This document shows positions 23,777 through 53,841 of a DNA stretch of 64,000 nucleotides, in pieces (positions within the stretch are counted from its first letter, which is position 1; every line of letters starts with the position of its first letter). The notes under the pieces were generated by a model that saw only the letters and a program-made list of their open reading frames with translations, did not search any database and was not told where the DNA came from. A program made the position numbers and the translations under genes. Source of the DNA: Paludisphaera soli (lineage in GTDB: Bacteria > Planctomycetota > Planctomycetia > Isosphaerales > Isosphaeraceae); the NCBI RefSeq assembly GCF_011064595.1, contig NZ_JAALJI010000009.1:1-64000 (forward strand). The letters are read 5' to 3'.

Positions 23777-26749
23777 ATGAGCAGGCCAGCGGCGGATCGG
23801 ACGGCCCGGAGGATTCAGGGGCTCTGCGACTCGGGGATGTTGGGAGCCTGGAGCGACGGCCGCTTGCTGGGCCGATTCGCCGACGGCGAGGGGGTCGAGC
23901 GCGAGGACGCCTTCGCGGCCCTCGTGCTGCGCCACGGGCCGATGGTCCTGGGGGTCTGCCGGCGGATGCTCGGCGGGGGGGCCGACGCCGACGACGCCTT
24001 CCAGGCGGTCTTCCTCGTCCTGGCACGCAAGGCGGGCTCGCTCCGGGACGCCGAGTGTGTCGGAGCCTGGCTCCGCGTCGCGGCCGTGCGCACCGCCCGA
24101 GAATGCCGACGGCACCTGCTGCGGCTCCGGGACCGCGAGGGGGCACCGCTCGATGATCGCCCCGCGGCGAACTTCGACGCCGATCGGTTCGAACTCCGGG
24201 CGATGCTGGACGAGGAGCTGGGGCGGCTGCCCGGGCGATATCGCGAGGCGATCCAGCTTTGCGAGCTGGACGGCGTCCCCCGCCGCGAGGCCGCCTCGCG
24301 CCTGGGCCTCGCCGAGGGGACCCTGTCGAGCCGCCTCGCCCGGGGCCGTTCGCTCCTGCGCGACCGGCTCGCCCGCCGGGGCCTGGCCGTCGGCGGCCTG
24401 GGAGTCGTCATGACGCCCGACGCCCGCTCCGCAACCTTGCCCGACGCCGCCCTACGCCTCGCCTTGAACGCCATCCCGACGCGTGCGGCCACCGGGACGG
24501 TCTCGGAGGCCGTCGCCTCCCTGGCCGAAGGAGTCCTCGCCATGCTCGCCCTTTCCCGCTGGATGTCGCTCGTCAAGACCGGCGCCCTGCTCGCCTCGCT
24601 CGCCCTCGGGGCCGGTCTGGCCTGGGGATACTCGGGGCTCGGAACTCCTCCGACCGCGGCCGCCCTTCCTCCGGCACCCTCCGCCTCGTCGGGCCCGGAA
24701 ATCGCCCGGGGCATGGTCGTCGGCGAGGCCGGCGAGCCGGTGGCCGGGGCTCGCGTGCTGATCAACGCCTATTCTCCAACGGAGATCCGGGGTGCGACGG
24801 CTCCGGACGGTTCGTTCGCCATCGAGACGGAGGATCGCGTGGTCGACGGACGTTCGATCCTGGTCCAGGCCGACGACGGTCGCGTCGGGGCCTTCGCCTA
24901 CGGCGACGACGTGCCACGGGCCCGCGCTTCGGAGTCGGTCCGGATCGTGGTGAAACCGGGCCGGGCGATCCGCGCCCGGGTGGCCGACGCGAGCGGCGAG
25001 CCGGTCGCGGGGGCCGGCGTGGAGGTTGTCGCCCGTCAAAGGATCGTGGCCCACGCCGAGACCGGGGCCGACGGCGTCGCCCGGCTGATCGTGCCCGAAG
25101 CCGACGAAGTGCGCTGGATCGTCGCCCAGAAGGCGGCGACCGGGCTCGACTACGCCGAGTTCGGCGACCACGACTACAAGGCCGTCCGCCCCGCCGGCCT
25201 CGTCGTCCAGGAGCTGCCCGAACAGGTGTCGCTCCGCCTCGCCCCGCCCCAGACGTTTCAGGTCCAGGTGGTCGACCCGGGCGGCAAACCGGCGGCCGGG
25301 GTCGGGTTCCAGGTCCAGGGCCTTTGGATCCCAGGCCGACGAACCGCCGTCCGTTACCCGAGCCGAATGCTGGAGGCGGCTTCGACGCCGGACGGGGTCG
25401 TTCGTTTCGACTGGCTCCCGGCGACATTGCAGGGAGCGGGCGTCATCCCTTCCGATCCTGGCGACGGCTACGGCACCGTCAGCCTCTCGTCCGATCCGTC
25501 CGTGCCCGTGGTGGCGAGGCCGACGCCTCGGGCCGAACTCGGCGGACGAATCCAACTGCCCGACGGTTCGCCCGCGATCGACGTCCGCGTCTCCGCGAAG
25601 TCCTGGATGGCAGGGTCGATGGTCGCGATTTTCGCGACACGGAGCCGGGGGGATGGGACCTATTCGATCCGGGTGCCGGCAGGGGAACGCTACTCGGTCT
25701 GGGTCGAAGACGAGGACTGGGCCGCCGCTTCCCGCATGGACGTCGTCCCCGAAACGGGGCCTCCACCGGCCCGGATCGACTTCACGCTCACGAAGGGGAT
25801 TCTCCTCCGGGGCGTCGTCACGGCCGGGCCGGAGCGTCGGCCGCAGCTGGGTGCCCGCATCTCGATCGTCGAACGGGGACAGACGCGCCCCGCCGCCCAG
25901 GCCGTACCCGCTCCGCCAGGCGCGACGGAGATGGAATTCGCGCCGGTCGGGATACCTCGCGAGGCGAGGCTGGCCTCCTTGCAAGCCACTCAACGGTCCT
26001 GGCTCAAGCGGACCGACGCCGAGGGCCGGTATGAGTTCCGGCTCGGCCCTGGTTCCTATGATCTGATCAGCGACACGAATCCGAGGGGCGAGACCATGAC
26101 CCTCGGCCTCGAACAGAACGAGGTCGTCCGCGACTTCCACGCCGCCCGACCTTCGGAGCGGCGGCTCGTCGGTCGGGTCGTGGACCAGCGGGGCGTGGCC
26201 GTGCCCGGGTCGCGCGTGGAGGTCGCGAGCAGCGACGGCGCGGCGGCGTATCGACCTCTCCTTACAGACGCCGAAGGCCGATTTCGGCTCGATTGCCGGA
26301 CGATACCGCTGGGCGTCGAAGTGGTGAGCGCCGACGGCGCCGCCGGTGGGTTCGTCGAGGTCGGCCCCGACGCCGACGAGGTCCTGATCACCCTGGAGCC
26401 GACCGCCAAGGCGACGGGTGTCCTCCTGGACGAGGAGAATCGGCCGCGACCGCGGCAGGTCCTGAGTTGGCTGCGAGTCCTCGCTATCGACTCGCGGCCG
26501 ATCTCAACCAATTCGATGAGTGACGCCTTGTCGATCACCGACGATGTCGGCCGATTCACCTCGCCGCCGCTGTTCGTCGGCCGGGTCTACCGTGCCGAGC
26601 TGCTCCCCCAGTCGTCGACCCCGCCGGCCTTCGCCAGCTACGGGATCGGGCTGGTCGAGCCTCGGGGGCCGGGGATCCTCGACCTCGGCGAGATCCGCGT
26701 CGACGTGCTACCCCACAGTCGAACGACGGCGGGCCTGAATCGACGCTGA
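23777..26749 (+). CDS. ECF sigma factor fused to a membrane helix and carboxypeptidase-regulatory-like repeats
   Basis: This 990-aa fusion has three parts. Residues about 45-115 are sigma-70 region 2 (FAALVLRHGPMVLGVCRRML, DADDAFQAVFLVLARKAGSL). About 140-200 is region 4 with its helix-turn-helix (YREAIQLCELDGVPRREAASRLGLAEGTLSSRL). Residues about 266-287 form one transmembrane helix. The remaining roughly 700 residues hold several carboxypeptidase-regulatory-like beta-domains (e.g. GMVVGEAGEPVAGARVLI, GRVVDQRGVAVPGSRVEV). Planctomycetes are known to have ECF groups with long C-terminal extensions. I infer an extracytoplasmic sensor tethering the sigma domain. GGGAG lies 8 nt before the ATG. 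No anti-sigma gene is adjacent. Confidence 0.82.
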   Translation: MSRPAADRTARRIQGLCDSGMLGAWSDGRLLGRFADGEGVEREDAFAALVLRHGPMVLGVCRRMLGGGADADDAFQAVFLVLARKAGSLRDAECVGAWLRVAAVRTARECRRHLLRLRDREGAPLDDRPAANFDADRFELRAMLDEELGRLPGRYREAIQLCELDGVPRREAASRLGLAEGTLSSRLARGRSLLRDRLARRGLAVGGLGVVMTPDARSATLPDAALRLALNAIPTRAATGTVSEAVASLAEGVLAMLALSRWMSLVKTGALLASLALGAGLAWGYSGLGTPPTAAALPPAPSASSGPEIARGMVVGEAGEPVAGARVLINAYSPTEIRGATAPDGSFAIETEDRVVDGRSILVQADDGRVGAFAYGDDVPRARASESVRIVVKPGRAIRARVADASGEPVAGAGVEVVARQRIVAHAETGADGVARLIVPEADEVRWIVAQKAATGLDYAEFGDHDYKAVRPAGLVVQELPEQVSLRLAPPQTFQVQVVDPGGKPAAGVGFQVQGLWIPGRRTAVRYPSRMLEAASTPDGVVRFDWLPATLQGAGVIPSDPGDGYGTVSLSSDPSVPVVARPTPRAELGGRIQLPDGSPAIDVRVSAKSWMAGSMVAIFATRSRGDGTYSIRVPAGERYSVWVEDEDWAAASRMDVVPETGPPPARIDFTLTKGILLRGVVTAGPERRPQLGARISIVERGQTRPAAQAVPAPPGATEMEFAPVGIPREARLASLQATQRSWLKRTDAEGRYEFRLGPGSYDLISDTNPRGETMTLGLEQNEVVRDFHAARPSERRLVGRVVDQRGVAVPGSRVEVASSDGAAAYRPLLTDAEGRFRLDCRTIPLGVEVVSADGAAGGFVEVGPDADEVLITLEPTAKATGVLLDEENRPRPRQVLSWLRVLAIDSRPISTNSMSDALSITDDVGRFTSPPLFVGRVYRAELLPQSSTPPAFASYGIGLVEPRGPGILDLGEIRVDVLPHSRTTAGLNRR

Positions 26750-31469: not shown

Positions 31470-32221
31470 GGCGGCGGCCCCCCCGCCCGGGCGGCGCCCG
31501 GCTCCGCGAGCAGGACCGGCGTACGGCCCCGCCCGATCAGCCGCTCGACCACGCGGACGGCCCGCGGGAGGAGGCCCCGCCCCGCGTCGGCCGGGTGGAG
31601 CACGACGCAGGGCAGCGAGCCCGGCCGCAGGCGGTGCAGCGCATCGCCGAGCCGCGCGCCGGCCGGTCCCAGCGGTGCGAGCACGCCCCAGTCCCACGAC
31701 CAGGTCGCCAGCCCGATCGGCGGGGCGTCGACGAATTCGAGCGAGGAGAACCCGGCCCGGAACCGGAATCCGTGGCGGGCCAGCTCGGCCATCCCGGCCC
31801 GACCCGACCGCCAGGCGGGGGGGACGAAGCCCTCGACGGGCCGGCCGAGACGCCGATCGAGGATCGCCCGCCCCGCCTCCAGGCGCCGCCGGGTCTCGTC
31901 GAGCGACAGCCCGTCCAGCTCGTTCGACCGCCCGGAGAGCATCGCGATCGGGCCGAGTCGATCCTGACGATGGGCGAATCCGTGCATCAGGAAGGCCCCG
32001 GCCGATCGTTCCAGGACGCGGAGGAAGCGCGCGTCGCGGCGGCCGGCCCCCAGCGCGGCGCCGTGCCAGCAGGGGACGACCGCGGCGGAGAGGCGGTCGC
32101 CGACCAGCGGTGCGATCGCCCGCCGGACGTCGGCGAGGTGTTCGGCGAGCGCCGGGGCGACGTCGTGCACGACGACGGCGAAGCTCGACGAGACTTCGGC
32201 GGGGGCGGCGGTCGTGCTCAC
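31466..32221 (-). CDS. Polysaccharide-deacetylase-like protein (DUF2334/NodB-like)
   Basis: The 251-aa protein begins with FAVVVHDVAPALAEHL, whose Asp matches the NodB catalytic base. It has HGFAH (HxxxH, metal ligands) at about residue 90, then GFVPPAWRSGR and late TWSWDWGVLAPLG and CVVLHPAD. This pattern fits DUF2334-type deacetylases that act on N-acetylated or O-acetylated glycans. There is no signal peptide, so it may act in the cytosol on lipid-linked intermediates. GTG 32221 overlaps the upstream stop (GTGA), with GGAG 8 nt before it. It is the second gene of the operon. Confidence 0.74.
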   Translation of the reverse strand: MSTTAAPAEVSSSFAVVVHDVAPALAEHLADVRRAIAPLVGDRLSAAVVPCWHGAALGAGRRDARFLRVLERSAGAFLMHGFAHRQDRLGPIAMLSGRSNELDGLSLDETRRRLEAGRAILDRRLGRPVEGFVPPAWRSGRAGMAELARHGFRFRAGFSSLEFVDAPPIGLATWSWDWGVLAPLGPAGARLGDALHRLRPGSLPCVVLHPADAGRGLLPRAVRVVERLIGRGRTPVLLAEPGAARAGGPPP

Positions 32222-35200
32222 ACCTCGCTCTCCACCCGTTCGGCGTCGGGGCGGTCGGACCACCAGGAGGAGGCGGCGTCGGAGTCGACGATGCGGGAGG
32301 AAGGGGGTTCGGCGGGCTCGGGGTCCTCGTAGCCGCCGAGGGACCAGACCAGCTCGCAGTTGTGGTGGACGTCGAGCATGGTCAGGGTCTGCACGGCGCG
32401 GAGGATCAGGATCTGGTCGCTCCAGAGGTCGGTCTTGAGGAGGACGTCGTGCAGCCGGGCGCGGACCTCGGCCCAGGGGTCGGCCCCCCCCTGCCCCAGG
32501 ACGACGCGGAACCAGCCCCGGGTCACGCGGCGGTGGCGCCGCAGGAAGGTCGTGATCCGCTTCCGCGCGGCGGCGTCGAAGCGGGCGAACTGGGGGAGGT
32601 CGAAAAGGCGGCGCCACGGCGGGACCTTGCGCGGCACCGGCCGCCAGATCCGCCGGGGGTTGAGGATCGGGTCGGGGAGCCCGGTGGGGAGCTTCCTGAG
32701 GTTGGACGTGGGCGAGGCGGCGTAGTCGGCCAGGATCGTCAGGGCCTCGATCGAGAGGGCCAGCGTGGCGACGTCGTCGTGATCGAGCGCGCAGGCGGCG
32801 ACCAGGGCGCGGAGGGCCTCGCCGGCGCGGTTCGCCAGGTAGGGGGTCTCGGCGGCGAGGAACGCCGGCAGGTCTTCGAGCGTCCAGCCGAAGCGGCGGA
32901 GCCAGCGGGCCGTCCAGGCCAGCCGCCGCTGATGGTCGCGGCGGATCTGGTCGGCGATGATCCGGTCCTTGCGCGAGGCGCCGATGAAGTCTAGGTCGGA
33001 TTCCATCGTCGAGTCGAACGCGAGAGAGGCCGGCGCGGAGGGGAGGCGGAGGCCCAGGTACTCCACGTCGAGCCGCGCGCGGAGCCAGAGCGAGCCCATG
33101 AACACCGGCTTGCGCATCCGATGGATCTTGCGATGGGCGGCGGCGTAGGAGTCGGCCGGGACGTCCTTGTCGCGGCTCACGCGGGGGTTGAGGATGTGGT
33201 GGACCCCCTGGTAGACGCCGCGGACGGCGATCCAGGCGCTGCGGAAGATCGCGGCGGAGACGACGAGCGGGAAGAGGGCGATCCGGCCGCCCGAGAGTCG
33301 GGCCTCATAGAACGTGTAAGGGTTGATGGTCCGCTGGGCCGGAGGCAGGTCCTGGAGCGGGAAGCTGCGGAACGCCCGGCGGACGTTCTGCTGGCGGTCC
33401 TTGCGGACGAGTTCCGCGACCTGGGGGCCGAAGCGGCCGAGGATCTCGGCGTCACGCTCCGGCTCGTCGGCGAGGAAGTCCATGGCGGTGAACTCCACCG
33501 TCTCCAGGAACGCGGCGGCCTCGTGGCGCCTCGGGGCCCTGGGGGGGAGCGGGGCGGGGTCGCGGACCTCCAACGGCTCCGGGACGTTGGGCGCGGGGAG
33601 GCGGACCTCGTCCGGGTCGATCCTCAGCCGCTCGGCCAGCCAGACCTGGAAGGCGCGCCGGCGTTCGGGGGGCGAGCAGGCCAGGCGGTCGAGCGGCACG
33701 GCGTTGGCGTTGTAGTCCAGGAGCAGGACGGCCGTCTCCTGGACGATGATCCGGGTGATGTAGTTGAACCAGAGGTACGGGCCCCCCAGCAGCCCCCCCG
33801 CCCGGCTCAGGTCGAGCTTGCCCAGGGCCCGGCTCTCGCGGAGCACGAAGTCGAGCCGGCTGCGGCGCAGGTTGGCGAGGGCCAGGTTCCCCAGCAGCTG
33901 GACCGAGGTCTTCACGTCGCTGCGGTGGAAGGGCGAGCCGTCCAGGTAGTCCTGGTAGAGCAGCCGGATGTTGCGCAGGAAGGTCAGCTCGCGGTTGGCG
34001 AAGCGGGTCTGGGGCCCGGCGAACAGGGCCTCGACGTCGGCGGCGGCGGTCGGGCGGTCGGAGTAGAGTTCGGGCTGGTGGTCGTCGGCGGCCCGCATGG
34101 CCAGCTCGGGGTCGACGACCCGTTCGGCCAGGAACCGGGCGTCCTGCTCGCTGCGACGGGCCTTGAAGGTCTTGGTCTGCGAGGCGAACTGGGCCTCGAC
34201 GATCCGCTCGCTGAAGTCGGCCGACTGGTTGGCGATCTTGCGGAGCCACGAGCCGAGCGACCAGATCGCCAGGCAGATGGCGCCGAGGACGATCACCGGC
34301 CACCCCAGCCGCCTCTGCACCGCGTCGACGAACGGCCGGAAGACGCTCAGGAAGGTGATGAGGTTCACCACCAGGAAGAGCACCAGGAACGCGGTCCCCA
34401 GCCAGAGCAGGCGCTTGGCCGGGGTGCGGGTGGCGTTGACCAGCGTCAGCCCCAGGCGATCCAGGAAGATGGCCGGCGAGAGCGTGGCCTGGAGGTCGGC
34501 CAGGAAGTAGATCACGTCCAGCCCGCGCTGGATCGCGTAGCCGACGTAGTTCGCCGCCAGCGTGACGGCCTCGGCCGGCGACTTCTCGCGGTGGGCGACC
34601 AGGCTGCGGATCAGGGGGAGCCGCCGCACGAGGGGGACGTCGAGGACCCGGATGTAGGCGTCCACCGAGTTGACGAACCCCTGACCCATGCGGTCGACGA
34701 GGGTCTCGGGCGTGAGCTGGATCAGCCGCTCGACCAGGGCTTCGACGGGGATTTCGCGGTCGTCGCGGTGCTCGCTCAGGGGCTCGATGTGGCGGTCGGG
34801 GAGGAATTCGAGCCGCACGGCGAGGTCCGCGAGCCGTCGCGACGCCAGGGCGTCCTGCTGGTCGCGATGGAGGCGGCGGCCGACGGCGGCCTCGACGGAT
34901 TGGAGGTCGGCGCGGAGCGACGCCAGGCGGTGCCGGTCGCCCGACTCGGCGCGGTGCTCGCGGCTGGGCTCGAACAGGAGGATGTTGCGGTTCAGCAGCC
35001 CGGCGTTCCGGCGCACCAGGCGGTCGCTCAGCCGGAGTGCGAACAGGACCAGTCGCATCAGCCGGACGACCGGGATCGCCAGCCGGAGCAGCTCCAGGAT
35101 GCGGGCGAGCCGCAGGTAGCGCAGGAGCCAGAGCGTCTCCTCGCCCCGGGTCGTGAGGTGCTCGTCCAGCGCGTAGGCCAGGAAGCCGAACGGCAGCGAC

Positions 35201-36636
35201 GCCAGGAAATCGACGGCGAAATGGCGGACGAGATACCGTCCCTTCGCCGGCGCGAGGATCAGCCGCAGGGTGAATTCGGCGAGCAGGCCCGAGCAGACGA
35301 ACAGGTCGAGCCAGGCGAACAGCTCGCGGCGTCCGGGCGAGAGCCCGCCGGAGCGGTCGAGGAACGTCTCGGTCACGATCAGGAGCGAGAGCGCGACGAT
35401 CAGGAGCAGGACGACGTTCTCCAGCCACGACGCGACGCGGGCCCCGAGCAGGTTGCGGAGCCGGAGCGTCAGAAGCTTCTCCTGCCACTCCGACCCGACG
35501 TTGCGGCGGAGCCCGCGGACCCCGACGAGGGCCTCGTCGAGCCGTCGGACGTCGTCCGGCGAGAGTCGCCGGCCCTCGGGGGCGCGTCGGCCGGCGCGGC
35601 GGGTCGCCCGGATGCCGTCGGCGAGCCGGTCCAGGTCCTCCCCCGCCGTCTCCAGGCGGAGGACGGCCCGGCGGAGGGGGGCGTCCTGGAGGAAGGCGAT
35701 CATCTCGGCCAGCTCGTCGCGGGCGCCCTGCACGATCCGCTCGCAGGACCGCGCCGCCTCGGCCGGCGGCAGGGCCAGGAGGCTGGCGTCGAGCCGCTCG
35801 GCGACCTCTTCGCGGCGGGCGGCCAGGGCCTTCGTCCAGGCCTCGGGGTCGTCGCCGGGCCGCTCGACGTCGGGGGCGATCGAGGACTCGTCCTCGACGT
35901 CCGTCGCGGCCTCGGCCTCGTCGACCGACTCCAGGGCGCCGACGCGGGCCTGGAGCCGCGAGAGCTTGTTGCGCACGGAGGCCAGCCGCTCGGGCGTGGA
36001 GTCCTCGTAGGCCGCGTCCAGCTCCTTGCGGACCCGACGCTCCAGGAGGATCCCCCGCATCCGCTCGCAACGGGCGCGCAGGGCCTCGCGGCGGGCGCGG
36101 GCCTTGGGCGAGGGCCGGGGCTCGGCTTCGAGCAGGTGCCGCACCTTCGCCAGCTCGACCTCCAGCCAGGCGGCCGGCCCCGGCCCCGGCGCCCCTTCCA
36201 GGCGGTCCAGGAGGTGGGCGAACCATTCGAGGTCGCCGCGCGCGGCGTCGAGCGCCAGCAGGCGGCGGAGGGCGTCGGGGTGGGCCTGGGTCGCCTCGGC
36301 CTGCAAGGCGGCGCGTTCGCGGATGGTCCATCGGCGGAGCCGCGACGCCATCAGCCGACGGGCGTCGCCCTCGGGCTCGGCCGCGGCCAGCAGGTCGTCG
36401 ACGGCCCGCTTCAGCTCGGCCAGGCCTCGGACCACGGCGCGGCGGAGTCGCTCGGTCCCCGCGTCGGGCGGGTGGGCGTCGAGCCCGGCGCGGATCTTCC
36501 AGCCGGCCTCGACGTGCGCCAGCAGCCTCCCCAGCCGCGACGCGCGGGCGTGGTCGTCCGAGGGGTCCTCGACCTTGCGGGCCAGGCCGCGGGCCTGCTC
36601 GCACCACGCGCGCTCGTTCCAAGTGATCTCGGCCAC
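32218..36636 (-). CDS. 1472-aa membrane protein with pore-less voltage-sensor-like domain
   Basis: I do not recognise the full-length family. Residues 1-400 are charged, helical and probably cytosolic. Residues about 404-543 look like an ion-channel voltage sensor. S1 is 404-425, S2 437-462 with Glu454 in LLAEFTLRL, and S3 471-489 with Asp476 in HFAVDFLASLPFG. S4 is about 504-543, with Arg at 506, 509, 512, 518, 525, 528, 535 and 539. No pore helix or TVGYG-like filter follows. Two more helices lie at about 742-768 and 779-799. The last 670 residues are soluble with conserved-looking blocks (NPYTFYEARL, KPVFMGSLWLRARLDVEYLGLRLP). GTG 36636 has GGAG 9 nt upstream. It heads the overlapping glycan operon. 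Confidence 0.8.
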   Translation of the reverse strand: MAEITWNERAWCEQARGLARKVEDPSDDHARASRLGRLLAHVEAGWKIRAGLDAHPPDAGTERLRRAVVRGLAELKRAVDDLLAAAEPEGDARRLMASRLRRWTIRERAALQAEATQAHPDALRRLLALDAARGDLEWFAHLLDRLEGAPGPGPAAWLEVELAKVRHLLEAEPRPSPKARARREALRARCERMRGILLERRVRKELDAAYEDSTPERLASVRNKLSRLQARVGALESVDEAEAATDVEDESSIAPDVERPGDDPEAWTKALAARREEVAERLDASLLALPPAEAARSCERIVQGARDELAEMIAFLQDAPLRRAVLRLETAGEDLDRLADGIRATRRAGRRAPEGRRLSPDDVRRLDEALVGVRGLRRNVGSEWQEKLLTLRLRNLLGARVASWLENVVLLLIVALSLLIVTETFLDRSGGLSPGRRELFAWLDLFVCSGLLAEFTLRLILAPAKGRYLVRHFAVDFLASLPFGFLAYALDEHLTTRGEETLWLLRYLRLARILELLRLAIPVVRLMRLVLFALRLSDRLVRRNAGLLNRNILLFEPSREHRAESGDRHRLASLRADLQSVEAAVGRRLHRDQQDALASRRLADLAVRLEFLPDRHIEPLSEHRDDREIPVEALVERLIQLTPETLVDRMGQGFVNSVDAYIRVLDVPLVRRLPLIRSLVAHREKSPAEAVTLAANYVGYAIQRGLDVIYFLADLQATLSPAIFLDRLGLTLVNATRTPAKRLLWLGTAFLVLFLVVNLITFLSVFRPFVDAVQRRLGWPVIVLGAICLAIWSLGSWLRKIANQSADFSERIVEAQFASQTKTFKARRSEQDARFLAERVVDPELAMRAADDHQPELYSDRPTAAADVEALFAGPQTRFANRELTFLRNIRLLYQDYLDGSPFHRSDVKTSVQLLGNLALANLRRSRLDFVLRESRALGKLDLSRAGGLLGGPYLWFNYITRIIVQETAVLLLDYNANAVPLDRLACSPPERRRAFQVWLAERLRIDPDEVRLPAPNVPEPLEVRDPAPLPPRAPRRHEAAAFLETVEFTAMDFLADEPERDAEILGRFGPQVAELVRKDRQQNVRRAFRSFPLQDLPPAQRTINPYTFYEARLSGGRIALFPLVVSAAIFRSAWIAVRGVYQGVHHILNPRVSRDKDVPADSYAAAHRKIHRMRKPVFMGSLWLRARLDVEYLGLRLPSAPASLAFDSTMESDLDFIGASRKDRIIADQIRRDHQRRLAWTARWLRRFGWTLEDLPAFLAAETPYLANRAGEALRALVAACALDHDDVATLALSIEALTILADYAASPTSNLRKLPTGLPDPILNPRRIWRPVPRKVPPWRRLFDLPQFARFDAAARKRITTFLRRHRRVTRGWFRVVLGQGGADPWAEVRARLHDVLLKTDLWSDQILILRAVQTLTMLDVHHNCELVWSLGGYEDPEPAEPPSSRIVDSDAASSWWSDRPDAERVESEV

Positions 36637-43970: not shown

Positions 43971-46900
43971 ATGGCCGAGGCCGGATCGAGCAGCCAGGAA
44001 CCTTACCGGTTCCGGATCGGCAGCTACGGGATCATCCACCCCCTGGGATCGGGGGGGATGAGCTCGGTCTTCCGCGCCGCGCACCTGGAGACCGGGCACG
44101 AGGTCGCGCTCAAGGTGCTCCCGTCTTACATGGCGCGGAACTCGACGATCCTGAAGCGGTTCGTGGCCGAGGTCCGCAGCGCCGAGTCGCTGGAGCACCC
44201 TAACATCGTCTCGATCTACGACCGGGGGAGCGACGAGGGCCGCTACTACCTGGTCCTGGAGTACGTCCAGGGGGGGGACCTCCACGACTACGTCCAGAAT
44301 CGAGGCCCGCTCGACCCGGACGAGGCGATCGGCCTCATCGCCCAGGCGGCGCGGGGGCTCGAATATGCGATGTCGCGCGGGGTGATTCACCGCGACGTGA
44401 AGCCCTCCAACCTGCTGCGGACCCCTCTGGGGGAGCTGAAGATCACCGACCTCGGGCTGGCCGTCCGCCCCGAGTCCGAGGACGAGCGCGTCACCCGCGA
44501 GGGGACCACCGTCGGCACCGTGGACTACATGGCCCCCGAGCAGGCCCGGGACAGCCGGGCGACGAGCTTCCAGAGCGACGTCTATTCGCTGGGGTGCACG
44601 CTGTATTACCTGCTGGCGGCCCAGCCCCCCTTCCCCGGCGGCGACATCACCGAGAAGCTGACGAATCACGCCCGGACCCCGCCGCCCGACGTCCGCGACC
44701 TGCGGCCCGACCTCCCGCCGGCCCTGGCGGACCTGATCCGTCGGATGCTGGCGAAGCGCCCCGAGGACCGCTTCGCCAGCTATCGCGACCTGCTCGCCGC
44801 GCTCGGCGCCCTGGGCGGCGACGAATCGAGCGTGGCGCTCGTGCCGATCGACGACGAGCCGACGCCCCTGCGGCTCGTCCGCGATCGCCCGGCCGCGCGG
44901 GTCGCGGCGGCCCCGGACCGCGTCCCCGAGCCGCGGCCCACCTCGTCGCTCCCGGAGATCTCGCTCTCCGCGCTCGGCCCCGAGCTGCTGGCGGATGCCG
45001 CGCCTCCGAGGCCCGCGTTGGCGGGCCCGGGCCCCGCCCTGTTGAGCCTCCCCGTCTCCACCCCGCCGGGGGCCGTCGCGCCGGGGCCCCGGCAGTCGGC
45101 GCCGGTCTCGGAGGACGCCTGGATCATCCGCTGCGTGGTGCTCGGCGCGATCGTGATCGTCGCGGTCATCGGGCTGGACCTCATCCTGCGGCCGTTCCCC
45201 GACCCGGCCTCCCTGCGCTTCCCCGAGTCGCCCGACTCCGGCTTGCACCGAGTCCGCGAGATCCAGCCCGATCAGCCCGAAGTCGTCGCGGCGGCGGTGC
45301 CGCCGCCGGCGGTCGAGGCCGAGCCGGTCGAGACGGCCCCCGCGGAGCCGGAGTGGGTCGAACCGACGGACGTTCCGGAGGCCGACCGCCCGCCCAAGGT
45401 GTACCCGCCGGCGGTCCTCTCGGCCTACCTCCCCTCGTGGGCGCTGACTCCGGTCCGCGCCGAGGCTGACGGCCCGACCACCGTGGTCCGCCGGGCGGCC
45501 GACGGCCGGGACTCCGGAGAGGTCGCCTCTCTCCGGCAGGCGCTCGACGTCCCCCGGGGGACGGTCGAGCTGGCGGACGTCGGCCCGTTCGTCATCGACG
45601 ACCTGAGGGTCGCCGGCGAGTCGCGGGTGATTCGCTCGCGGCCGGGATATCGCGCCACGGTGCTCGTCGAGGGGCCGAAGATCGAGGCCGTGCGGGCGCT
45701 CCCCGGCGTGTTCACCCTCGACGGCCGTGAGCTGACGCTGGACTCGCTGGACCTGGTGGTCAACGTCCGCGCCTTGGCGATCAACCAGCGGGCGCTCTTC
45801 CACGGCTCGGGCTTCCGGCTGACCCTGAAGAATTGCACGGTGACGATCTACAACCCGAACCGCGCGCCGTTCGCTTTCCTCCGCACGGAGGAAGGGGCCA
45901 GGGCGTCGACCGTGCGGATCGAGGACAGCCTGATCCGGGGCGACGTGGCCACGCTGTTCGAGCTGAACCGGGGCGAGCCGGCGGAGATCGTCGCCGCGCG
46001 GTCGATCCTGGCCTCCGAGGGCCCCCTGCTCCGGACGCCCGACGTCTCGCCGAAAGGCGAGAACCAGCTGTATCTGCTGGGTTGCGCGGTCGGGTCGCGA
46101 GGGCCGATGATCGACCTGGGGGGCGGGAAGGCGGACGCCCCCGGCCGCCGGCTCCGCGTCCGCGCGTTCGACAGCGTGTTCGGCCGGTTCGCCGGCGCCG
46201 GCGTCGCCAGCCTCACGTCGAGCGATCGCCCCGACGCGGTCGTCGGCCGGCAGCTCGATTGGATGGGGGCGAACAACCAGTTCGCCGGCTGGGTCGGCTA
46301 CCACTCCGCGGGGCCCGATCACGCGATCACCAAGCGGACGCTCGCCGCGTTCAGTTCCACGTGGAATGCGGCGGGCGTCGCCTCGCGCGAGATCGTCAAC
46401 GAGTGGCCCGAGACCCGCTGGGTCGCCGACCTGACGCCAGGCGCCCTCACGCCCTTCCTGCCGGGCTGGGAGCCGCTCGTCGAGGACGTGGCCCAGCCCC
46501 GACCCTTCCTGAAATATCGCACGGTCCTCAACTTCCCCGCGCCTGAGACGCCCCGAATCGTCCCGGCGACCGGACCGGCGCCGCCCGGCGCGGTCGAATT
46601 GACGTTCGACGCCGACGCCCCCCAGCCGTGGAACGGCGACCTGGGCGCCTTCCTCCGCGACCGCGGCGGCGAGCCCCGGGGCCGTTTGAGGGTCCGCGTG
46701 GTGGGCTCCGGGGCGAAGCGGATGTCGCCCGTCCGGCTGCCCGAGGGGTCGACCGTCGAGATCCGCGTGGAGCACCCGGCGGACCCGGAGGCCCTCCCGC
46801 TCGTCTTCTCGCCCGCCTCCGACGCCGAGGGAGAACCCCTGATCGCGGCGACGGGGGGCGTGCTGAGCCTCTCCGGACTCCGCCTGCTGGTCGAGCAGGA

Positions 46901-47765
46901 TTGTCGGCTCCCCACCCTGATCCGGGTGGACGACGGTTCGCTGGCGCTGGACCGTTGCGAGCTGTCGATTCCCGTCGCGCTGGAACATCCGCCGGCGCTC
47001 GTTTCGTTCCGCGCCCCGACGACCCGCCCCCGCCTCGTGTCGGACCCGCCTTCGCCGATCGCGGAAGCGTCGGATCGGCCGGTCTGCGTCGTGGCCGATT
47101 CCGTCCTGATCACGACCGGCGACGCGCTTCGCGCCGAGGTGGGGCGCGGCCTGGTGGCGGTCTCGCGATGCATCGTGGCCGCGAAGGGAGACGCCTTCAC
47201 CCTGACGCCGGCCCGCGTGGCCCGGTCGCGATTCCTGGCCGACCTGCGGCTCGACCGCTGCACGGTCGCCGTCGGCGGGGCCGCCGTCCGGATGTCGGCC
47301 TGGAGCGGCGAGGCGCCAGGGCCTGATCGCCCCTGGCTGGTCACCAGCGGCAACACGGCGTACCTCGACTTCTCGGACCGCCCCCCCCGGAAGAGCGTCC
47401 TCTGCCGGGCCGACGCCGACTGCTTCGCGCAGGGCCAGATCTTCTGGAGCCAGGGGAACGACGCGATCGAGGTCTACGGCTTCGCCGCGGCCGGGGACGC
47501 CCCGCCGCCGAACCGCACCCGCGACGTGGTGGCCCAGTGGGTCGACCTCTGGGGCCCCGGCCACGTCAAGGACGTCACCGGGCCCCGGGCCGGCGTGGCC
47601 TCGCCGAGCGTCCGGCTCCAGGCTCGCCCTCGCAACGGCCGGATCACGCCGGACGAGCTGCTGCTGGACCCGAACCATCACGTCGGCCGCTCCCGGCTCG
47701 ACGTCGGCGCCAGTCCCGAAGTCCTGCTCCTCGGGAGGGCTCCGCCCCTCGGCCGCAAGCGCTGA
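43971..47765 (+). CDS. Transmembrane Ser/Thr protein kinase with very large extracytoplasmic region
   Basis: The 1264-aa protein has an N-terminal Hanks-type kinase domain (about 17-285). It contains a glycine loop (LGSGGMSSVFRA), VALKVL with the catalytic Lys, HRDVKPSN, the DLG in place of DFG (ITDLGLAV), the APE motif MAPEQARD and SDVYSLGCTLYYLL. A Pro/Ala-rich juxtamembrane segment and one helix (about 386-406, CVVLGAIVIVAVIGLDLIL) follow. About 850 residues lie outside the cytoplasm, with beta-strand-rich segments such as LTLDSLDLVVNVRAL and LSGLRLLVEQDCR that suggest right-handed parallel beta-helix repeats. The ligand is unknown. GAGGGG precedes the ATG. Confidence 0.86.
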   Translation: MAEAGSSSQEPYRFRIGSYGIIHPLGSGGMSSVFRAAHLETGHEVALKVLPSYMARNSTILKRFVAEVRSAESLEHPNIVSIYDRGSDEGRYYLVLEYVQGGDLHDYVQNRGPLDPDEAIGLIAQAARGLEYAMSRGVIHRDVKPSNLLRTPLGELKITDLGLAVRPESEDERVTREGTTVGTVDYMAPEQARDSRATSFQSDVYSLGCTLYYLLAAQPPFPGGDITEKLTNHARTPPPDVRDLRPDLPPALADLIRRMLAKRPEDRFASYRDLLAALGALGGDESSVALVPIDDEPTPLRLVRDRPAARVAAAPDRVPEPRPTSSLPEISLSALGPELLADAAPPRPALAGPGPALLSLPVSTPPGAVAPGPRQSAPVSEDAWIIRCVVLGAIVIVAVIGLDLILRPFPDPASLRFPESPDSGLHRVREIQPDQPEVVAAAVPPPAVEAEPVETAPAEPEWVEPTDVPEADRPPKVYPPAVLSAYLPSWALTPVRAEADGPTTVVRRAADGRDSGEVASLRQALDVPRGTVELADVGPFVIDDLRVAGESRVIRSRPGYRATVLVEGPKIEAVRALPGVFTLDGRELTLDSLDLVVNVRALAINQRALFHGSGFRLTLKNCTVTIYNPNRAPFAFLRTEEGARASTVRIEDSLIRGDVATLFELNRGEPAEIVAARSILASEGPLLRTPDVSPKGENQLYLLGCAVGSRGPMIDLGGGKADAPGRRLRVRAFDSVFGRFAGAGVASLTSSDRPDAVVGRQLDWMGANNQFAGWVGYHSAGPDHAITKRTLAAFSSTWNAAGVASREIVNEWPETRWVADLTPGALTPFLPGWEPLVEDVAQPRPFLKYRTVLNFPAPETPRIVPATGPAPPGAVELTFDADAPQPWNGDLGAFLRDRGGEPRGRLRVRVVGSGAKRMSPVRLPEGSTVEIRVEHPADPEALPLVFSPASDAEGEPLIAATGGVLSLSGLRLLVEQDCRLPTLIRVDDGSLALDRCELSIPVALEHPPALVSFRAPTTRPRLVSDPPSPIAEASDRPVCVVADSVLITTGDALRAEVGRGLVAVSRCIVAAKGDAFTLTPARVARSRFLADLRLDRCTVAVGGAAVRMSAWSGEAPGPDRPWLVTSGNTAYLDFSDRPPRKSVLCRADADCFAQGQIFWSQGNDAIEVYGFAAAGDAPPPNRTRDVVAQWVDLWGPGHVKDVTGPRAGVASPSVRLQARPRNGRITPDELLLDPNHHVGRSRLDVGASPEVLLLGRAPPLGRKR

Positions 47766-50037: not shown

Positions 50038-53000
50038 ATGGGCGTTGCATCCTTCCGGTTCGGACTCCTCTCGACGGTCCTCGGCCTCGCGGCCGGCTGC
50101 GGCGGGCCCTCAGCCCCCGCGCCCGAATCGACTCCGACGGTCCCGCCCCCGAAGGTCGCCGCCGAGCCCCCCCGGGACGAGATCCCGGCGGATCGGATCG
50201 ACGCCGTCCTGGCCGCCCGGCTCCGGGGCCTGGGGCTGATGGAGCAGTACGAGTACCGCAAGGCGGCCGAGGCCTTCCGCGAGGTCCGCAAGCTGGCCCC
50301 CGGCTGGTCCGACGGCGCGATCGACCTGGCCATCGCCCTGCTCAACGACTCCGGCGAGCAGGCCGAGGAGGCGAAGAAGGCCGGCGGCGAGAAGCCCCCC
50401 TCAAACTACGACGAGGCCCTCGCCCTCCTCGACGAGGTCCTCGAACGCAAGCCCAAAGACCCCCGCGCCCTCTTCTGCAAGGGGCTGATCGCGGCCGACC
50501 AGGGGGACGCGGCCGGGGCCCACAAGCTCTTCAGGAAGGTCGCCGAGGTCGACCCCCTCGACGCCGCGTCGTGGCTCTGGGCCGCGAAGACGGTCACGAA
50601 CGCGCAGGACCCGAACCGGCCGCCCGCCCCGGCCGAGGCCCCGCTCAGGATCGAGCTGCTCAACAAGGCCCTCGCGATCGACCCCTACCTGTCGTCCGCC
50701 CTGTATCCCCTGGCCTTCGCCTACCGGGACATCGGCCGGGCGGACAAGCAGCGCGAGATCCTGAAGCGCTGGCAGCAGCTCGACCGCAACCGCTCCGGCC
50801 CCGTGCCGGGCCCGGGGAACGTGGTCGAGACGACCTACGGCGAAATGGGCCGTTACGGCATGATCGCCCCGCCCGGCCCCGTCGCCGGCGCCCTCGACCC
50901 CGCGCCCGCCCCGAGGTTCGACGCCCCCGCGCCGTTGCACGTGAAACTGGCCGAAGGGGAACGCTGGGCGACGCCCGCGGACTTCACCGGCGACAAGGCC
51001 GTGATCGAACGGGTCCGGGCCCGCTTCGGCGCGGGGGTCGCCGCCTTCGACGCCGACGGCGACGGCAGTCTCGACCTCTACCTGACGGCGGCCGTCGTCG
51101 GCCCCCAGGGCCCGCACGACGCACTTTTGCTGAACAAGGGGGAAGGCGGGTTCGAGGACGCCTCGGCCGCGTTCGGGCTCGCAGCCGATCGCGCCAGCAC
51201 GGGCGTCGCCGCCGCCGACTTCGACGCCGACCGCCGCGTCGACGTCTACCTGACCGGCATGGGGGGCGACCGGCTCCTCCGCAACGTGGACGGCAAGGCG
51301 TTCGAGGACCTGACCGAATCCCTGAAGCCCGAAGGGCCCCCCGCGTTGTCGCTGACCGCCCGCTGGCTAGACCTCGACCAGGACGGGGATTTGGACCTGT
51401 ACGTCGTGAACTATACGTCCGCCGAGCACGCCGAGTCCGCGTTACTCGAAGGCCGGGACGCCCCCCCGGGCCTGCCGAACGCCGCTTTCCGCAACAACGG
51501 CCGGGCCCCGGCGCTGCCCGGCAAGCCCGAGCCCGCGTGGGCCCCGCTGGCGACCGCCGACAACGTGACGACCACCGGCGGCCTCTCGCTCGCCCTCGTC
51601 CCCTGGACGGGCGAGGAGGCGCTTCGGGACGAGCCTCGACGTCACACCGGCATCGCTCTGGCCGACTTCGACGGCGACCGCGACCTGGACCTGATCCTGA
51701 CCTCGGACGACGCGCCCCCGGTCGTCGTCCTGAACGAGCGGTTGGGCCGATTCCGATCGGCGGCCCCGAAGGGCCTGGACGAGGCCGTCGGGACCACCGG
51801 GCTGCTCGTCGCGGACCTCGACGCCGACGGCCGGCCCGACCTGGCGGCGCCCTCGGGCGACGGCCCGCTCCGGGCCTGGAAGAACGTCACCGCCAGGGCG
51901 GAGTCCGCGGACCTGGTCCCGAGCTTCGAGCCGTTCCCGAACAACGCCCGGGGCTGGCGCGTCGCCGCCGCCGCCGACCTGGACCTCGACGGCCGGTTCG
52001 ACCTGATCGGGCTTCGCACGCGACCGGCCCCCGGCGCGAGCCCGGAGCCGCCCATCGCCTGGCTCCGCAACGAGGGGGTCAGGCTGGCGACTCAGGAGCC
52101 GCCCGCGCTCGCCGAGCCCGGCGACGGGTTCATCCTCGCCGACTTGGCGGGCGACGCGCTGCCGGACCTCCTGCTGGTCCCGGCGGGGGGCCCGCCGGTG
52201 CTGGCTCGGAACCTGGGGAACGGCAACCGCTGGCTGGCGGTCGAGCTGGGGGGACGATGGCGGGTCCAGCCCGAGCTGATGCGGACGAACCCCCACGCGA
52301 TCGGCGCGCGAGTGACGGTCCAGGCCCGGGGCGTCGACGCTTCGTATGATCACACGACTCCCGTCGCGGGCCTCGGATCGGCGGTCGGCCCGGTGGTGAT
52401 CGGCCTGAAGGACCGGCCGGCGGCGGACGTAATCCACGTCCTCTGGCCCGACGGCGTGATGCAGGCCGAGCTGAACGTGGCCGCCGACGAGAAGCTGGCG
52501 CTCGCCGAGCGGAACCGCAAGACGGGGAGCTGCCCGGTCCTTTTCACGTGGAACGGCGAGCGGTTCGTCTGCCTCGGCGATTTCCTGGGGGGCGGCGGCC
52601 TGGGCTATCTCGTCGCGCCCGGCGTCTACGGCCAGCCGGATCGCGACGAGGCCGTGGCCATCGCCGACGATCAGCTGACGCCGGAGCAGGGGGCGTATCG
52701 TATCTCGATCACCGAGCCGATGGACGAGGTCGCGTACCTGGATCACATCGCCCTGGAGGTCGTCGACCGTCCCCCGGGCGTCTCCGTGGCCCTCGACGAG
52801 CGGTTCGCCCCGACCGGGCCGAGGCCGACGGGCGAGCTTCGGGCCTGGCGGACGGCGGTCGAGCCCGTTCGGGCGACCGACCTGAAGGGCGCGGACGTGA
52901 CCGAGAGGCTGAGGCGGTGGGACCGGGACACGGTCGACGGCTTCGCCAGGCGTCCCGGCTGGATCGGCTACGCGGAGGAGCACGGGATCGTGCTGGACTT

Positions 53001-53841
53001 CGGCGACCGGCTGGCGAACTACGGGCCCGACGATCGCCTCGTCCTGGCGCTCGCGGGCTGGGTGGAGTATCCCTACTCGCAGACGAACTACGCCGCCGCG
53101 ACGGCCGGCGTGGAGCTGGCGCCGCCGGTGATCGAGCGGCTCCGCGAGGACGGGTCGTGGGAAGTCATCGAGCCCCACGCCGGCTATCCCGCGGGGCTGC
53201 CGCGGATGACCACGCTCGACCTCTCGGGGAAGCTCGCCGGCCCGCGCTGCGTGCTGCGGATCCGGACCAACATGGAGTGCTACTACGACCAGGCGTTCGT
53301 CGCGGTGCGCGACGCCGAGGCCGAGCGTTCGCTCCGCACGACCAGCCTACCCGCGGCCCGCGCCACGCTGGGCCCGCGCGGCTACACCCGCGAGGTCTCG
53401 CCCGACGGCCGCCTCCCCCTGGTCTACGACTACGACTATGTCGACCCCGCGCCGCTGGCGCGGATGTCGGGCTCGCTCACGCGGTACGGCGACGTGGCGG
53501 CCCTGCTCCGGGCCGACGACGATCGGCTCTGCGTGGTGGGCCCCGGCGACGAGGCCCGGATCGAATTCGAGGCCGACGCCCTGCCCCCCTTGCCCGCCGG
53601 CTGGAGCCGGAGCTTCGTGCTGCGGTCGGTCGGCTATTGCAAGGACGCCGACCCGTTCACGGCGGGGAGCGACTCCGTGGGCCCGCTCCCCTGGCGCGGC
53701 ATGCCCGAGTATCCGTTCGCCGATCCGGCCGCCCGCCGGCCCGCGGACGCCGCCTACGCCGACTACCTGCGGACCTTCCAGACCCGCCCGGCCGGGGGGC
53801 CGGCCGGCCTTCGCGCTGATTCCGGCGGCGGAAGCCGTTAA
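50038..53841 (+). CDS. CRTAC1-type lipoprotein with TPR, VCBS/FG-GAP and ASPIC-UnbV domains
   Basis: The 1267-aa lipoprotein starts with a signal peptide and lipobox LGLAAGC (Cys at about residue 21). TPR-like helices cover about 60-270 (YEYRKAAEAFREVRKLAP). FG-GAP/VCBS-like calcium-binding repeats of the DxDxDGxxDL type follow at about 335-720 (AAFDADGDGSLDLYL, WLDLDQDGDLDLYVV, ADLDADGRPDL). The ASPIC-UnbV module is at about 725-825 (AIGARVTVQ, HVLWPDGVMQAEL). The last 430 residues (from CPVLFTWNGERFVCLGDFLGG) form a separate region I cannot assign. It is probably anchored in the cell envelope facing outwards. No enzymatic motif is visible. Confidence 0.84.
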   Translation: MGVASFRFGLLSTVLGLAAGCGGPSAPAPESTPTVPPPKVAAEPPRDEIPADRIDAVLAARLRGLGLMEQYEYRKAAEAFREVRKLAPGWSDGAIDLAIALLNDSGEQAEEAKKAGGEKPPSNYDEALALLDEVLERKPKDPRALFCKGLIAADQGDAAGAHKLFRKVAEVDPLDAASWLWAAKTVTNAQDPNRPPAPAEAPLRIELLNKALAIDPYLSSALYPLAFAYRDIGRADKQREILKRWQQLDRNRSGPVPGPGNVVETTYGEMGRYGMIAPPGPVAGALDPAPAPRFDAPAPLHVKLAEGERWATPADFTGDKAVIERVRARFGAGVAAFDADGDGSLDLYLTAAVVGPQGPHDALLLNKGEGGFEDASAAFGLAADRASTGVAAADFDADRRVDVYLTGMGGDRLLRNVDGKAFEDLTESLKPEGPPALSLTARWLDLDQDGDLDLYVVNYTSAEHAESALLEGRDAPPGLPNAAFRNNGRAPALPGKPEPAWAPLATADNVTTTGGLSLALVPWTGEEALRDEPRRHTGIALADFDGDRDLDLILTSDDAPPVVVLNERLGRFRSAAPKGLDEAVGTTGLLVADLDADGRPDLAAPSGDGPLRAWKNVTARAESADLVPSFEPFPNNARGWRVAAAADLDLDGRFDLIGLRTRPAPGASPEPPIAWLRNEGVRLATQEPPALAEPGDGFILADLAGDALPDLLLVPAGGPPVLARNLGNGNRWLAVELGGRWRVQPELMRTNPHAIGARVTVQARGVDASYDHTTPVAGLGSAVGPVVIGLKDRPAADVIHVLWPDGVMQAELNVAADEKLALAERNRKTGSCPVLFTWNGERFVCLGDFLGGGGLGYLVAPGVYGQPDRDEAVAIADDQLTPEQGAYRISITEPMDEVAYLDHIALEVVDRPPGVSVALDERFAPTGPRPTGELRAWRTAVEPVRATDLKGADVTERLRRWDRDTVDGFARRPGWIGYAEEHGIVLDFGDRLANYGPDDRLVLALAGWVEYPYSQTNYAAATAGVELAPPVIERLREDGSWEVIEPHAGYPAGLPRMTTLDLSGKLAGPRCVLRIRTNMECYYDQAFVAVRDAEAERSLRTTSLPAARATLGPRGYTREVSPDGRLPLVYDYDYVDPAPLARMSGSLTRYGDVAALLRADDDRLCVVGPGDEARIEFEADALPPLPAGWSRSFVLRSVGYCKDADPFTAGSDSVGPLPWRGMPEYPFADPAARRPADAAYADYLRTFQTRPAGGPAGLRADSGGGSR

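Follow-up and report, generated by a model that had tools for sequence, protein, structure and literature searches.

A family of planctomycete proteins joining a pore-less voltage-sensing domain to a conserved candidate effector region

An open reading frame in the 64,000-nucleotide stretch of Paludisphaera soli DNA analysed here (the window) raises the question of whether a bacterial protein can carry a voltage sensor without a pore, and what such a sensor might act upon. A 2023 review holds that every known prokaryotic voltage-sensing domain has an accompanying pore (PMC10377628). The pore-less sensors found in reviews are Hv1, the voltage-sensing phosphatases, TMEM266 and SLC9C1 (PMC13095418); the first-pass annotation of this locus had rightly named proton channels and phosphatases and had left out the other two. 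A search of open-licence papers for voltage sensors in Planctomycetes returned nothing relevant, and earlier notice elsewhere is possible.

The gene lies at 32218-36636 on the minus strand, as do all the features of it given below, starts with GTG and encodes 1472 amino acids without an internal stop; its codon-position GC of 0.76/0.48/0.96 is typical of real genes in the window, whose GC is 72% (host assembly, 8.0 Mb). It is present in 19 of 59 genomes searched, the host included. A wider search of the phylum found matches in 69 of 392 sampled Planctomycetota genomes, 56 of them full relatives, defined by a best E of 5.2e-50 or lower; the remaining 13 matches are short and fall, for the most part, on the sensor region within reading frames of ordinary size. 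Scanning all species for the pattern brought up planctomycetes or unclassified bins only, the named relatives being mostly Isosphaeraceae, and a plasmid search with the gene gave zero matches.

The part of the protein that recalls a voltage sensor comprises residues 395-535 (35032-35454). Pfam Ion_trans (PF00520) matches residues 403-535 with 29.1 bits, over the cut-off of 25; this is the sole Ion_trans match of the whole host genome, and the same family is matched in 29 of 34 diverse family members, among which no other Pfam family recurs. PDB matches, whether of the protein itself (phmmer) or of a 34-member profile, fall on channel S1-S4 regions only. Residues 376-1440 were modelled with AF2 (mean pLDDT 62.9, S4 confidence lower); the top structural match of the model is the isolated voltage sensor of KvAP, at Z 11.7 over 132/132 residues and rmsd 3.2, unrelated vinculin rows standing about 3.4 lower in the same comparison, at Z 8.3; Foldseek gave zero matches to this model below E 0.001. 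The four-helix S1-S4 fold of the voltage-gated cation channel superfamily is thus present, with S4 modelled at low pLDDT. Both the PF00520 search and the comparison with known sensors had been proposed as checks on the first-pass reading of a voltage-sensing domain in this protein, and both bear it out: by sequence and fold, the region is almost certainly such a domain.

We counted the charges of the domain over a 52-sequence family alignment. An S1 acid is kept at position 423 in 51/52 members (E/D) and another at 406 in 51/51. S2 (35263-35307) has D444 in 52/52, an acid at 454 in 52/52 (E/D; Glu in the window copy) and a basic residue at 458 in 52/52 (K/R); S3 (35176-35223) has an acid at 476 (D/E) and P482, each in 52/52. 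E454 and D476 are the S2 glutamate and S3 aspartate that had been picked out from the window sequence. D444 is 10 residues from E454 and E454 is 22 from D476, a spacing that we take to resemble that of Shaker E283, E293 and D316 (10 and 23). At position 451, where the charge-transfer centre has its aromatic residue, 33/52 members carry Phe and 19/52 Leu, the window copy being one of the latter: the centre, made up of an S2 aromatic, an S2 acid and an S3 acid, is recognizable, with its aromatic in only 33 of 52.

S4 (35047-35127) holds R506, R509, R512 and R518, followed by P522, R525 and R528. Eight arginines had been claimed for it, and eight there are in the S4 region (R506, R509, R512, R518, R525, R528, R535, R539); their description as mostly three residues apart was generous, for only the first four stand in strict three-residue register; E515 falls within their series, and P522 breaks it. 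R512 is kept in 49/52 members, R518 in 47/52, R525 in 49/52 and R528 in 52/52. Within positions 503-521 across the 52 members, Arg or Lys fills 226 of the 346 cells in register, against 9 of 597 elsewhere (6/299 + 3/298). The S1-S4 pattern, conserved over the whole alignment and with the S4 Arg/Lys in one phase, exceeds chance.

An arginine at every third S4 residue is a feature of the family at large, weaker in the window's own family. In distant homologues as many as eight S4 arginines stand in register, and 17 of 28 such homologues keep five or six of the six register sites, whereas among the 17 nearest ones the number is two to four. The window copy keeps four, some sister genera only two or three; loss of S4 arginines in close homologues, which had been named beforehand as grounds against the sensor reading, has thus partly occurred. 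Since the charges are down to 2-4 of six sites there, sensing in the window's own family may be weak; the functional sensor TMEM266 has three S4 arginines (PMC6392501). S1-S4 could instead be a voltage-insensitive membrane anchor or ligand-binding bundle in the style of TRP-type channels, its S4 charges vestigial, as might be thought from the mere two in-register arginines in 7 of the 17 near homologues and from Leu451. We judge this unlikely, because an anchor would need neither countercharges nor in-register arginines, and the family has kept all the former in 51-52 of 52 members and, in distant members, as many as eight of the latter. Voltage sensing by the domain is, on this evidence, probable.

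What follows S4 is not a pore. The Ion_trans match spans positions 2-124 of the 241-position profile, that is, S1-S4 only, whereas the same search applied to true channels in related genomes reaches profile positions 230-239, so that the search method does not account for the absence of the pore half. A soluble, helical stretch of some 200 residues (536-735, including the post-S4 linker; 34432-35031), with D538, G651, R671 and D714 invariant, separates S4 from the first of two later transmembrane helices. These helices, at about 743-767 and 780-800 by hydrophobicity, form a hairpin (residues 743-800; 34237-34410) which is among the best conserved segments of the protein (G785, C788, G795, W797), and whose connecting loop, of about 12 residues in the window copy, is 11-12 residues long over aligned columns in 52/52 members, a few of which carry an insertion immediately before the loop stretch. 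A motif scan of the 52 loops found no K or Na selectivity filter, and there is no S5-P-S6 pore domain of the kind that defines a voltage-gated ion channel. The claim that no pore follows S4 thus stands, as does that of two further helices, to which should be added a third hydrophobic stretch that had been missed (residues 1116-1145; 33202-33291), with a family mean Kyte-Doolittle value of 1.61 at residue 1128, which may be a membrane-associated or a transmembrane helix.

The strong conservation of the hairpin leaves some room for an unusual channel or transporter, in which the hairpin and the stretch near 1128 make up a conduction path in an oligomer, gated by the sensor; with so short a loop, no filter motif in 52 members and a distance from S4 to the first hairpin helix unlike that of channels, we hold this to be quite improbable. 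Conduction of protons through S1-S4 itself, as in Hv1, with the remainder regulatory, appears more improbable still: the conserved S1 acids at 423 and 406 do recall the S1 Asp of Hv1, but the Hv1 S4 tryptophan is not conserved in the 52 members, and there would be no call for so large a conserved effector.

That remainder is far from uniform. The N-terminal region (residues 1-382; 35491-36636) is charged and weakly conserved, with a mean majority frequency of 0.28 and a single column at or above 90%; the only hit of a PADLOC search for a defence system was a weak DndD match in it (13.8 bits), and this candidate was rejected, as was PspB, whose NCBIfam match fell far under its cut-off. Conservation is densest in the hairpin and in residues 881-1115 and 1146-1230. 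Accordingly we delimit, by its density of invariant columns, an effector core at residues 881-1230 (32947-33996), more strongly conserved than the sensor, in which W956, Y975, D1080, R1081, R1086, R1102, N1105, Y1110, R1169, R1173, M1174, R1186, D1190, E1192, Y1193 and D1214 are invariant or nearly so. Behind the core lies a helical subdomain (residues 1231-1440; 32317-32946) modelled in part with high pLDDT (80-92) in two AF2 models.

The first-pass annotation had recognized no family outside the sensor, and neither did profile searches: across 34 members Pfam yielded zero recurrent families beside Ion_trans and NCBIfam zero matches, and a profile of residues 880-1440 found nothing in the PDB even at E 10. 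The core has no recognizable known catalytic motif. It is not confidently folded in either AF2 model, and zero VIA-align matches to the model of 880-1440 (pLDDT 55.8) show only that the model is poor; low AF2 confidence and absent profile matches do not make the effector fold a new one. Sensor and effector travel together: split or contig-end pieces aside, no intact member without a sensor occurs among the phylum matches, and pairwise identities in the two parts correlate (r 0.67).

The gene neighbourhood varies by group across the phylum, with no common partner. Upstream of the window copy, and on its strand, lies an M19 membrane dipeptidase gene (PF01244; 36726-37820, minus strand). Such a gene is adjacent in about 11 distinct Isosphaeraceae-type loci, the window included, but not in deeper relatives, and no other neighbour recurs within the window's own family. 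One group has a MazG-like gene as neighbour. In a distant planctomycete group (L099 12546-16426, related L085 and L088) secretin and GspE-type ATPase genes, which are type II secretion genes, stand immediately upstream of the gene. The glycosyltransferase genes near the window copy are kept alongside in few relatives only; with neighbours differing so across the phylum, the tie to envelope glycan synthesis that had been proposed is not supported. Elsewhere in the window, on the plus strand, are reading frames for a 990-aa protein in which ECF-type sigma factor regions 2 and 4 are fused to several carboxypeptidase-regulatory/Ig-like repeats (23777-26749), a Ser/Thr protein kinase of 1264 aa whose long extension lies outside listed families (43971-47765), and a protein of 1267 aa that combines TPR and FG-GAP repeats with an UnbV/ASPIC domain (50038-53841).

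A different arrangement came to light in five related Isosphaeraceae genomes, in reading frames of 579-664 aa (L103 in G031, L104 in G014, L105 in G019, L106 in G020, and one in G033) with an Ion_trans match over S1-S4 only. In the four that were read, S4 is followed by two transmembrane helices flanking a soluble loop and then by a domain of the class III cyclases, matched by Guanylate_cyc with 34.3 bits against a cut-off of 21.9; S4 has up to nine in-register arginines, its sequence in L103 being RAVRFVRGFRILRILRGLRILRALR. Such proteins appear to be bacterial voltage-sensor cyclases of class III (adenylate/guanylate). The arrangement is absent from the window's genome, and a search of the phylum for the fusion at E 1e-20, in a sample hardly including genomes that hold it, found none. 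Protozoan cyclases combine a sensor with a K+ pore (PMC10651576). A second pore-less sensor arrangement within Isosphaeraceae makes voltage-coupled effectors in this family more credible.

On balance, then, we favour a membrane protein whose effector is not a channel and is under the control of a voltage-sensing domain from the voltage-gated cation channel superfamily. We infer that on a change of membrane potential the S4 arginines would pass the charge-transfer centre (position 451, E454, D476), with E423 and D444 as their outer partners; the conserved post-S4 stretch (P522, R525, R528, R535, D538) could transmit the S4 movement to the cytosolic helical linker, to the hairpin and to the module of residues 881-1230, which is probably located at the inner face of the membrane. 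Given the predominance of Arg, Asp, Tyr and Asn among its invariant residues, this module would most likely act, as enzyme or as regulator, on a lipid or a phosphate-bearing substrate, an assignment that we offer as a guess with rather less than even prospects.

A pore-less bacterial voltage-sensing domain is new against the reviewed prokaryotic sensors, all pore-bearing, and a family of them spanning a bacterial phylum changes the view that prokaryotic sensors always carry a pore. As reviews list pore-less sensors only from eukaryotes, bacteria too may couple membrane voltage to a non-channel output, and the family suggests that they read membrane potential for purposes beyond ion flow. The broader proposition of bacterial voltage-gated enzymes or regulators, with a pore-less sensor driving an undescribed effector across Planctomycetota and a sensor-cyclase arrangement in the same bacterial family, we put forward tentatively, at slightly under even chances. 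The family provides a compact system in which to study how voltage is coupled to an effector, and the activity of its effector, a conserved region outside listed families, can now be sought.

Among known systems, KvAP and other prokaryotic voltage-gated channels share the S1-S4 fold and residue pattern with the planctomycete protein, which differs in having neither pore domain nor selectivity filter. Hv1 and TMEM266 are likewise pore-less, with a charge-transfer centre and few S4 arginines, but both are small and contain a coiled coil, whereas the planctomycete protein has about 900 further conserved residues, and lacks a conserved S4 Trp as in Hv1 (52 members). Ci-VSP also has a pore-less S1-S4 sensor with a cytosolic effector linked after S4; Pfam, NCBIfam and the C-terminal PDB profile revealed no PTEN-like phosphatase domain in the planctomycete protein, which is bacterial and has in addition the transmembrane hairpin and the long N-terminal region. 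SLC9C1 likewise couples a sensor to a non-channel membrane module in one chain; the exchanger and cyclic-nucleotide-binding domains that mark it are absent from the Pfam matches of 34 members, and in the planctomycete protein the sensor comes before the other module.
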